This document shows positions 1 to 1,954 of a stretch of DNA of 64,000 bases, in pieces (within the stretch, counting starts at the first letter, position 1; each line of letters begins with the position of its first letter). The position numbers and the translations under genes are program-made. The notes beneath the pieces were generated by a model. The model saw only the letters and a list, made by a program, of their open reading frames with translations. It made no database searches and had not been told where the DNA came from. The DNA is from Microcoleus sp. AS-A8 (GTDB lineage Bacteria > Cyanobacteriota > Cyanobacteriia > Cyanobacteriales > Coleofasciculaceae), in NCBI GenBank assembly GCA_039962225.1, contig JAMPKV010000001.1, forward strand, positions 1 to 64,000, given 5' to 3'.

Positions 1-113
1 GGTAATGAGGTATGCATGACAAGCACCAAATCATTGAGGAGCCGTGTGAAGGGAAACTTTCACGCACGGTTTTGAAGACCAGCGGGACTGGTGACAGTCT
101 CGCTGAGTTTAAT
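1..113 (+). mobile_element. 3' end of an inner group II intron (domains V and VI)
   Basis: Positions 39-72 form a 34-nt group II intron domain V. It begins GAGCCGTGTGAA and ends TTCACGCACGGTTT, with the GGGAAAC tip. A domain VI hairpin follows at about 81-104 (AGCGGGACTG, loop GTGA, CAGTCTCGCT), then the usual tail GAGTTTAAT ending at about 113. The rest of the intron lies left of the window. Immediately downstream the reading frame resumes inside a reverse-transcriptase domain at the RSVHDAI motif, which normally follows a GFRPG motif. This intron is therefore inserted in another intron's maturase gene. The exact 3' splice junction is inferred from the tail consensus and could be off by 1-2 nt. 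Confidence 0.85.
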
Positions 114-1364
114 AGATCGGTTCATGATGCTATCGGAGCCATCTATACCAGCATTAACAAAAAGCCTAAATATGTGTTCGACGCGGATATAAGCAAATGC
201 TTTGACCGAATAGACCACAAGGCACTGCTGTACAAATTAAATACCTTCCCGGCATTACGCCGCCAAGTTAAATCTTGGTTAAGGGCAGGATACATCCTTG
301 ACCACCAATGGGAACCAACCTATGCAAACACACCTCAGGGGGGAGTCATAAGCCCCCTCCTGGCGAACATTGCCCTGCATGGAATGGAACAGCATATTAG
401 AAGCTGCTTCAAGTCCAACGCTACTACAAAGTACGAGCTTGGGGTAGTGAGATATGCCGACGACTTTGTGATTCTTCACAAAGACCTAAAGGTTATAGAG
501 GATTGCATAAAGGGCGCATCGGAGTTCCTAGCATCAATCGGTCTTGAGTTACACCCCGAAAAGACAAGGATTGTCCATACCTTAAACAGTCATGGCAACC
601 AGACGCCAGGGTTTAACTTCCTTGGTTTCAACATCCGCCAATACAAAATTGGCAAACATCAGGGTAGCAAACAGGGATTTGTAACTCTCATCAAGCCCCA
701 GAAAGAAAAGATACAAGCTCACCATCACAAACTGTCAAACATCATAGTAGAAATGCTAGCAGCGCCCCAAGAAGCACTAATCGGGAGACTTAACCCGATA
801 ATCAGAGGCTGGTCAAACTACTACAGCGCAGTCGTGAGCAAGGAGACATTTAGGAAACTAGATTCCCTCCTATATTGGAACCTTAGAAACTGGGGAAAAC
901 ACCGTCACTCAACCCATACAGGTAAATGGGTATACGAACGGTACTGGCACAGAATCCGACAAGGTGAATACGATGCCATGACCTTCTCCACCAGTCAGGA
1001 AGGAAAAAATCCCTGCTGGCTACTATCCCATGCCCGAACACCTATAGTAAGGCACAAGAAAGTTAAAGGAGCCAAAAGCCCATTTGACGGTGATTTAATC
1101 TACTGGAGTTCGCGCCTTGGGGAACATCCCGAAATGGACAGGACAGTTGCAAGACTACTGAAAAATCAAGACGGTAAATGCGCCTATTGTCGCCTCAACT
1201 TCATGGATGGAGACTTAATGGAAAAAGACCATATCATTGAAAAGCGCTTTGGGGGTAAAAACTCCAGAGACAACTTCCAACTTCTCCATCGCCATTGCCA
1301 CGATAAAAAGACTGCGATGATGACAGTCTTGACTTGCTCCAATATCAAGGAAGCGGGCAAATGA
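114..1364 (+). CDS. Group II intron reverse transcriptase/maturase, 3' exon (5' part outside window)
   Basis: This is the C-terminal 416 or so residues of an intron-encoded protein that promotes splicing and retrohoming of its host intron. The frame enters at RSVHDAIGAIYTSI in the early RT blocks. It contains FDADISKCFDRIDH (first catalytic Asp), TPQGGVISPLLANI and the YADD catalytic motif in VVRYADDFVILH. A maturase X domain follows (LNPIIRGWSNYYS), then a C-terminal HNH endonuclease with CAYC, EKDHI and HRHCHDKK. I see no frameshift or stop. The reading frame extends upstream to position 12, but that part is intron RNA, so no genuine start codon exists in the window. A full protein would require splicing of the inner intron. 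The stop codon lies one base before the next domain V, so the ORF fills domain IV of its own intron. Confidence 0.85.
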   Translation, partial: RSVHDAIGAIYTSINKKPKYVFDADISKCFDRIDHKALLYKLNTFPALRRQVKSWLRAGYILDHQWEPTYANTPQGGVISPLLANIALHGMEQHIRSCFKSNATTKYELGVVRYADDFVILHKDLKVIEDCIKGASEFLASIGLELHPEKTRIVHTLNSHGNQTPGFNFLGFNIRQYKIGKHQGSKQGFVTLIKPQKEKIQAHHHKLSNIIVEMLAAPQEALIGRLNPIIRGWSNYYSAVVSKETFRKLDSLLYWNLRNWGKHRHSTHTGKWVYERYWHRIRQGEYDAMTFSTSQEGKNPCWLLSHARTPIVRHKKVKGAKSPFDGDLIYWSSRLGEHPEMDRTVARLLKNQDGKCAYCRLNFMDGDLMEKDHIIEKRFGGKNSRDNFQLLHRHCHDKKTAMMTVLTCSNIKEAGK

Positions 1365-1365
1365 G

Positions 1366-1440
1366 GAGCGGAATGATGCGAAAGTATCACGTTCCGTTCT
1401 GGAGAGCAGCGGCTCTCGTAAGGGAGTCGCTGACTTTAAT
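1366..1440 (+). ncRNA. Domains V-VI and 3' end of the outer group II intron
   Basis: A second 34-nt domain V runs 1366-1399 (GAGCGGAATGAT, tip GCGAAAGT, ATCACGTTCCGTTC). A domain VI hairpin follows (AGCGGCTCTC, loop GTAA, GGGAGTCGCT), then the tail GACTTTAAT ending at about 1440. This is the ribozyme core of the intron whose maturase lies just upstream. The two domain V copies differ in sequence, so the inner and outer introns are different elements and not a tandem copy. The 3' exon that follows reads as a TnpB C-terminus. Confidence 0.85.
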
Positions 1441-1954
1441 TAGCGGTAATAGCCTAGTTGCGGGTGAGAAGCTAAACATCAAGGGGATGACAGCCACAGT
1501 TAAAAAAGGGAAGCGGAAAGCCCAAAAAGCAGGGCTTAACCGTTCCATTTTAGATGTTGGCTTTGGCCTGATTGGACAAATGCTTGAGTATAAATTAGCT
1601 GAGGCAGGAGGATTCTATGTGGAGTCTCCAACTCAAACACTCAAGCCTACTCAGCGGTGTGCAACATGTTGGGAGTTAACGCCTAAAACATTAGCTGACA
1701 CAGTTCATGTTTGCTCTAATCCCAACTGCAACCACACCGAAGATAGAGATGTTAATGCTGCTCAAGTCAATATCACTTGGGCAAGGGGGCAGGAACTGTC
1801 CTCTTTAGGCGCAGAGTCGCTTAGCTCTACCGCTTGCGATCGTCAAGCGGCAACTAGGGGCGAAGAAGCGCTACTAAACGACAATCTGCTGCTGGGTCTG
1901 GAAACTCCGACCTCAGCGATAGCAGGTCGGAGTAGTTCATTTAAACTCCAATAA
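1441..1954 (+). pseudogene. tnpB: TnpB (IS200/IS605-type nuclease), 3' exon interrupted by group II introns
   Basis: About 170 codons of the TnpB C-terminal half. AGEKLNIKGM matches the region of the second RuvC acidic residue. LNRSILDVGFG and an LEYKLAEAGG segment follow, then a zinc ribbon (CATC then CSNPNC) and the final RuvC motif in EDRDVNAAQVNI. TnpB is an RNA-guided nuclease that helps retain IS200/IS605 elements. The N-terminal half and the start lie left of the intron insertions, outside the window. An ATG at 1334 in the same frame is intron sequence and is not a start. Whether the gene is dead or restored by splicing cannot be decided from the window, so I label it pseudogene provisionally. 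Confidence 0.75.
1905..1932 (+). other. Hairpin at the right end of the interrupted tnpB element
   Basis: CTCCGACCT and AGGTCGGAG form a perfect 9-bp stem around a 10-nt loop, inside the last codons of tnpB, followed by TAGTTCA. In IS200/IS605 elements such a hairpin near the right end serves transposition, and the 3' end of the guide RNA overlaps the tnpB end. By analogy the element probably ends near 1940. The exact boundary is inference. Confidence 0.5.

Follow-up and report, generated by a model that had tools for sequence, protein, structure and literature searches.

A Group II Twintron of Microcoleus sp. AS-A8 and Its Probable Origin from an Intron Lineage Specialised for a Conserved Reverse Transcriptase Motif

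Nested Group II Introns

The nested group II introns of the archaeon Methanosarcina acetivorans were reportedly described by Dai and Zimmerly in 2003. In the cyanobacterium Thermosynechococcus elongatus, F3 introns are nested in F1 introns (Mohr 2010, PMC2882425), and the accessible part of that paper reveals a clear likeness to the locus reported here, in that cyanobacterial group II introns of one family occupy a conserved site in the reverse transcriptase (RT) gene of other group II introns. According to the same source, the inner introns of T. elongatus are ORF-less and lie between the first two start codons, and the maturase may form without splicing (PMC2882425). In contrast, the inner introns considered here encode a maturase, open or broken, cut a core motif of the RT (GFRPG|RS) and are found in many divergent hosts across genera. 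M. acetivorans resembles them in that group II introns have homed repeatedly, and site-specifically, into others of their kind, at several levels, but is one archaeal species with up to five introns nested, as far as the available text goes (PMC4424553, PMC2882425). The Porphyridium plastid intron mat1f is similar in being one inner intron, equipped with an IEP, that occupies the same site in each of two outer introns; it differs in that the outer introns keep only IEP remnants, that a third copy lies in a gene and that one algal species is concerned, and the accessible part of the report describes no targeting of a conserved motif (PMC4476101). In Trichodesmium, a cyanobacterial group II twintron has been shown to splice sequentially, but its host is the gene of a cellular protein, and the portion of the paper at hand describes no lineage tied to a maturase motif (PMC4649490).

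Site-specific nesting of group II introns is, on the accessible text of these papers, already known from T. elongatus, M. acetivorans and the plastids of Porphyridium. No description of an intron lineage aimed at GFRPG was found in the partially accessible open-access literature, nor was there a match in it for GFRPG together with group II intron, the nests of M. acetivorans being covered here through later papers.

The Twintron at the Contig Edge

The window analysed comprises the first 64,000 nucleotides (1-64000) of contig C1 in the 7.75 Mb, 54-contig genome of Microcoleus sp. AS-A8; its features are collected in Table 1. What it contains is very probably the 3′ part of a group II twintron formed by an intron lineage specialised for a conserved RT motif. 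A preliminary description, made from the letters of this DNA, had claimed two pairs of domains V and VI, and this was borne out by Rfam, with RF00029 matching at 37-113 (54.9 bits, E 4.8e-8) and again at 1364-1440 (54.5 bits, E 6.1e-8), and RF04357 at 36-76 and 1363-1403. The inner intron accordingly shows domains V and VI at its 3′ end, both families falling within 36-113. In the frame that follows (114-1364), Pfam finds RVT_1 (PF00078) from about profile position 47-49 on, GIIM (maturase X) and HNH, i.e., the RT from the GFRPG|RS motif onwards, the X domain and the endonuclease. The preliminary description had called this frame intact, which holds for the C-terminal 416 aa, being open, and fails for the N-terminus of the RT, which lies outside the window. 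It had also placed a junction at about 113 between the codons for Gly and Arg; the Arg codon does follow directly after 113, and the Gly codon is seen not in the window but on contig C14 (GGA|GTGCG). The outer element thus has both the maturase (RT, X and endonuclease) and the domains V and VI of a group II intron, its N-terminal RT part being seen only on C14 and there probably belonging to a twin. Further on, a Cas12f1-like TNB match (PF07282, E 2.4e-10) was found on the frame 1334-1954, which reads on into the tnpB-like part. The outer intron itself lies within this tnpB-like gene, making an intron in an intron in a transposon gene, i.e., three layers of mobile elements.

In the mechanism proposed, the RNA of the inner intron and its own reverse transcriptase would recognise the DNA encoding GFRPG in other group II maturases, with EBS1 pairing to CCN-GGN and EBS2 to the stretch just before it, the Phe codon and its neighbours, and retrohoming would proceed by reverse-splicing exactly after the Gly codon. 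As the insertion separates two codons of the RT core, production of the outer maturase would require that the inner intron be spliced out, and the mobility of the outer intron would depend on that maturase. The part of the window's inner intron that lies beyond the contig edge is expected to carry the same kind of EBS1 and IEP.

Table 1. Features of the window and of closed nests in related genomes.
Feature	Position or length	Strand	Basis or remark
Window: inner group II intron 3′ end (end of domain IV, domains V and VI, TTTAAT terminus)	1-113	+	RF00029, RF04357; 5′ part beyond contig edge
Window: inner intron domain V	39-72	+	Rfam alignment
Window: inner intron 3′ splice junction, Gly/Arg codons of GFRPG|RS	113-114	+	window reads TTTAAT|AGA
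Window: outer maturase C-terminal part, 416 aa, the 3′ exon of the inner intron	114-1364	+	ORF and Pfam
Window: outer maturase stop TGA	1362-1364	+	ORF
Window: outer group II intron 3′ end, domains V and VI	1364-1440	+	RF00029, RF04357
Window: outer intron domain V	1366-1399	+	Rfam
Window: TnpB-like transposon gene, C-terminal part, the 3′ exon of the outer intron	1441-1954	+	PF07282
Calothrix NIES-4101 chromosome: inner intron	2519 nt		outer frame 53 codons before, 403 after the junction
Calothrix NIES-4101 plasmid4: inner intron	2519 nt		outer frame 176 codons before, 434 after
NIES-4105 chromosome: inner intron	2527 nt		outer frame 103 codons before, 383 after
Spirirestis: inner intron	2053 nt		outer frame 171 codons before, 404 after
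341R MAG: inner intron	2529 nt		outer frame 175 codons before, 405 after
Leptolyngbya plasmid1: inner intron	4892 nt		outer frame 164 codons before, 176 after

The Left Part of the Nest

The N-terminal half of the RT followed by an intron 5′ end, which had been predicted to lie to the left, was found on C14 of the same genome. The end of this contig carries the outer intron start GTGCGAATCG, then an RT N-half ending in NSYGFRPG, then GTGCGATTCGTTGGG; what follows the motif, GTGCGATTCG, is the 5′ end of the inner intron and has the GUGYG form in this twin copy. The 3′ sides of both contig C38 (CGC TCA TGT CAT GAT, RSCHD) and the window (AGA TCG GTT CAT GAT, RSVHD) continue in frame with the GGA of C14, and a relative without the interruption, on C8, reads GFRPGRSCHDA in an open frame. 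The twintron is thus split in this genome over contigs C14 and C38/C1, with the reading frame preserved across the inner junction on the C14/C38 side as well as in relatives.

The window begins at a contig edge, inside a repeat common to five contig edges, as might be seen if the contig start were an assembly chimera. The chance of this is minimal: C38 has the same junction in front of a C-half that has diverged (DNA identity is 81% over window positions 1-282, of which the first 113 are identical), 113|114 is internal to both C1 and C38 with differing flanks, and like junctions occur in closed Calothrix and Leptolyngbya records. The presence of the junction on both contigs with different C-halves means that it is not a one-off assembly join.

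The 5′ half on C14 most likely belongs with C38 and not with the window. When the RT halves are compared with C8, identity is 87% for the N-half of C14, 79% for the C-half of C38 and 55% for that of the window, N-halves being generally conserved (80% between C14 and C7); when the 3′ ends are compared with C49, 102 of 111 nt agree for C38 and 51 of 77 for the outer intron of the window. Synteny was also considered for this pairing, the 3′ flank of C38 being present in 54 of 57 relatives and the 5′ flank of C14, a repeat-rich gene, in 16 of the 57; in the four relatives inspected, none of the flanks of C14, C24, C27 and C52 stands beside that of C38. The N-half on C14 contains an in-frame TAG, because of which the outer maturase of this copy is probably dead.

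Searches with PF00078 and with the intron start did not find the window's own 5′ half or the middle of its inner intron in the assembly of this genome. PF00078 matches six places, the split halves on C1, C38 and C14 and others on C7, C8 and C4. In the form searched, the start of this intron family is present only on C14 (twice), C24, C27 and C52. The edges of C41, C49 and C9 match window bases 3-113 at 93%, and C27 and C52 each terminate in a stretch of exactly 113 bases that is identical to the start of the outer intron on C14; edges of this sort would result where an assembler using overlaps of 113 bases meets multi-copy introns. The two ends available in this genome can be compared with the inner intron of the 341R MAG, to which the window's 3′ end is identical at 106 of 113 nt and the 5′ end on C14 at 107 of 110.

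The Same Site in Other Genomes

When about 85,000 genomes were scanned for exact matches to the pattern YGFRPG|GTGYG, 24 loci were obtained, 16 of them cyanobacterial, in 12 assemblies, and 8 in other phyla. All 16 cyanobacterial loci continue with GTGCGATTCGTT and none of the 8 others does; RT text is recognisable upstream in 15 of the 16 (L043 is degenerate) and in none of the 8. GTGCGATTCGTT is common to a wider intron family, so a single lineage is not proved by this start taken alone. Of the 16, 13 continue with GGGTA[G/T]AAACTA, the type seen on C14, the exceptions being two loci of Pleurocapsales LEGE 06147 (GGCTAG) and one of Okeania (CTTAG). Of 386 genomes from the phylum, 3 match the pattern and 0 its reversed control. 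Among 388 genomes of the order, starts similar to the inner 5′ end were found in 58, and the seven places in six genomes (own included, two in G354) where identity is 91% or higher across no fewer than 73 of the 113 nt are all at GFRPG; the weaker or shorter matches, among the matches listed, follow other 5′ exons except for one in a Pleurocapsales genome (G553, L075). G472 contributes two of these short matches (96%, 46 nt), of which L079 was read. Symploca sp. SIO2E6 (G400, the same as G672 via L047) belongs to the same family as the window's genome.

These results suggest that an entire intron lineage prefers GFRPG|RS as its site, which goes beyond what the preliminary description had claimed. 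The nest could also have arisen by chance, when a generic mobile intron without site specialisation landed in the ORF of another intron. The family is indeed mobile and multi-copy in this genome (contig edges C9, C41, C49, C24, C27 and C52), twintrons are known from other bacteria, as far as the accessible text tells (PMC2882425), and copies occur outside maturases, namely two of the five lineage copies in Calothrix NIES-4101 and one in G679 (=G354). However, with the window's genome and Leptolyngbya boryana plasmid1 added to the 12 scanned assemblies, the identical nucleotide site is occupied in 14 assemblies, 12 of them with the GGGTA-type start, those with a readable IEP fall into a single clade, and EBS1 fits the motif, whereas related introns with another EBS1 sit at other sites. 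Chance landing is thereby largely refuted and must be considered very improbable.

The intron of Okeania at this site (L046) starts differently, with GTGCGATTCGTTCTTAG, and its IEP is truncated; its 3′ junction was looked for and not found, and TCCTGG was seen by eye within a possible hairpin loop. Over a short distance, the copy of Tychonema (L043/L112) resembles a short ORF-less inner intron; over a longer stretch, the 5′ junction is followed by other RTs, and an IEP of the lineage and a 3′ junction that matches come 5-7 kb further on. In Desmonostoc vinosum, a truncated copy of the nested junction is followed, about 2 kb downstream, by densely arrayed tRNA genes (L040:6526-8374).

Closed Nests in Relatives

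Six nests have both junctions on one contig, and in these twintrons both boundaries are seen directly (Table 1); in 6 of 6 the outer frame is open at the junction on both sides. The identity of the outer C-halves to the inner IEP is 62% for C38, 56% for plasmid4 of NIES-4101, 53% for the window, 38% for NIES-4105 and 35% for the NIES-4101 chromosome, so the hosts differ widely.

Another reading of the nest is that of a decaying pseudogene without splicing, in which the frame is simply inherited from an ancestral insertion. It would account for the TAG on C14 and for the several relatives with broken inner IEPs (the NIES-4105 chromosome, 341R and Spirirestis; frameshifts or truncations are seen in L053, L104, L109 and L098) and shortened outer frames (only 53 codons upstream on the NIES-4101 chromosome, only 176 downstream in Leptolyngbya), and on these grounds many copies may be dead. 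Against it, the C-halves of the window (416 aa) and of C38 (486 aa) are open to their stops, domains V and VI score well, and the plasmid4 nest of NIES-4101 has an open inner IEP of 611 aa together with open outer halves. As an account of the nest as such, decay is therefore a serious but rather unlikely reading, and a twintron from a specialised lineage remains the preferred one.

The nest on plasmid1 of Leptolyngbya boryana NIES-2135 (L095:7036-11927) has three levels: the outer RT is split at GFRPG, and the inner IEP is in turn interrupted, directly after EGTPQGG, by a third element that has an RT-like frame of its own. At the same place, the inner IEPs of the Calothrix/Fischerella branch (L103, L104, L105 and L098) read PQGGT[N/I/L]S and not PQGGVIS, and the outer RT in L103 also reads PQGGTIS; the PQGG place is possibly a second avoided target. 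At L167:1777-4386, one and the same IEP match is shared by two introns lying nearly in tandem, the second beginning where the translated text upstream resembles the 3′ end of another intron.

Guide Pairing with the GFRPG Codons

The guide sequences were sought by covariation, as places in the intron whose bases pair with those of the 5′ exon in related introns from many different sites, and against 20 permutations of the exons; the name of the motif and the numbering of IBS1 and IBS2 follow customary conventions. For IBS1, one intron position stands out with 20 exact pairings in 76 introns, the next best having 4. In 29 close relatives, EBS1 forms on average 5.38 of 6 pairs, compared to at most 3.41 in the permutations, and EBS2 4.28 of 5 compared to at most 2.90. 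Exon recognition by EBS and IBS is thus seen by covariation in these related introns, the inner EBS region of Microcoleus sp. AS-A8 itself lying outside its assembly. The lineage at the RT site has UCCUGG, ACCUGG or ACCGGG as EBS1 (8 rows), summarised as [U/A]CC[U/G]GG, which complements CCN-GGN, the Pro-Gly codons of GFRPG. At the targets of L098 and L095 only 4 of 6 EBS1 pairs are formed, and the copies outside maturases (two in NIES-4101, one in G679) have similar bases at the EBS1 place.

Other related introns were also seen next to conserved peptides. In five genomes (L076, L078, L083, L088 and L090) they follow nearly the same peptide, L[M/L]MDLAMMGC, which presumably belongs to a ribonucleotide reductase and would be another conserved enzyme motif as target; L081, L085, L087 and L091 lie in or adjoin GIDxG-like motifs at the 5′ junction, which we assume to resemble the RuvC motif I of TnpB/IscB.

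Intron Lineage and Loss of the Proline

A FastTree phylogeny was built from 84 IEP rows, leaving out the partial IEP of Okeania and the Pleurocapsales, which have no readable IEP. The GGGTA-type introns of the site come together in a single clade with an SH-like support of 0.998; of its 13 tips, 5 are from NIES-4101, 2 of those being ectopic, and one, Tychonema L112, owes its label to its 3′ junction only. The inner intron of the window was compared with this clade via its ends only, its IEP not being in the assembly. In an earlier tree, the partial IEP of Okeania groups with L174, away from the clade; if this placement is right, the site would have been reached by at least two intron lineages.

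The IEPs of the clade have themselves lost the proline of the motif: 12 of the 12 that are readable there, from 7 genomes, lack it (GFRAG in 11, GFRVG in 1), and the inner IEP of L109 also has Ala for Pro. In the 8 lineage rows, the pairing of EBS1 with the intron's own site is never above that with the target and is lower in 6, and 9 of 15 P-type relatives read CCAGGA, a full 6/6 target for the EBS1 UCCUGG. Loss of the proline in the inner RT is thus possibly a form of self-protection. Self-immunity as a proven trait was rejected, since 14 of the 71 other IEPs are also without Pro (P 57, A 12, V 1, I 1), parsimony requires 7 changes at this position over the whole tree, and the own site pairs equally to the real target in L098 and L095 (EBS1) and in L105 (EBS1 and EBS2). 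The loss of the proline thus fits self-protection but is seen elsewhere too, by descent, drift or escape. A more far-reaching interpretation, in which hyperparasitic introns are guided to the GFRPG of their prey, tell self from non-self by their own change of Pro to Ala or Val, and have been escaped by some prey in the same manner, so that an arms race is fought in one codon, is offered tentatively, as somewhat less probable than its opposite.

Significance

Split “reverse transcriptase” fragments in cyanobacterial annotations can be nests of this kind, and contigs from short reads break inside such nests. For the biology of these mobile introns, the niche would be a conserved stretch of codons in the enzymes of other mobile introns. 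Since the target lies in conserved codons of the RT, it would be present wherever introns spread, and losing it may cost the RT. Parasitism of one selfish element on another, self-avoidance and resistance would thereby become directly testable by the standard retrohoming assay.
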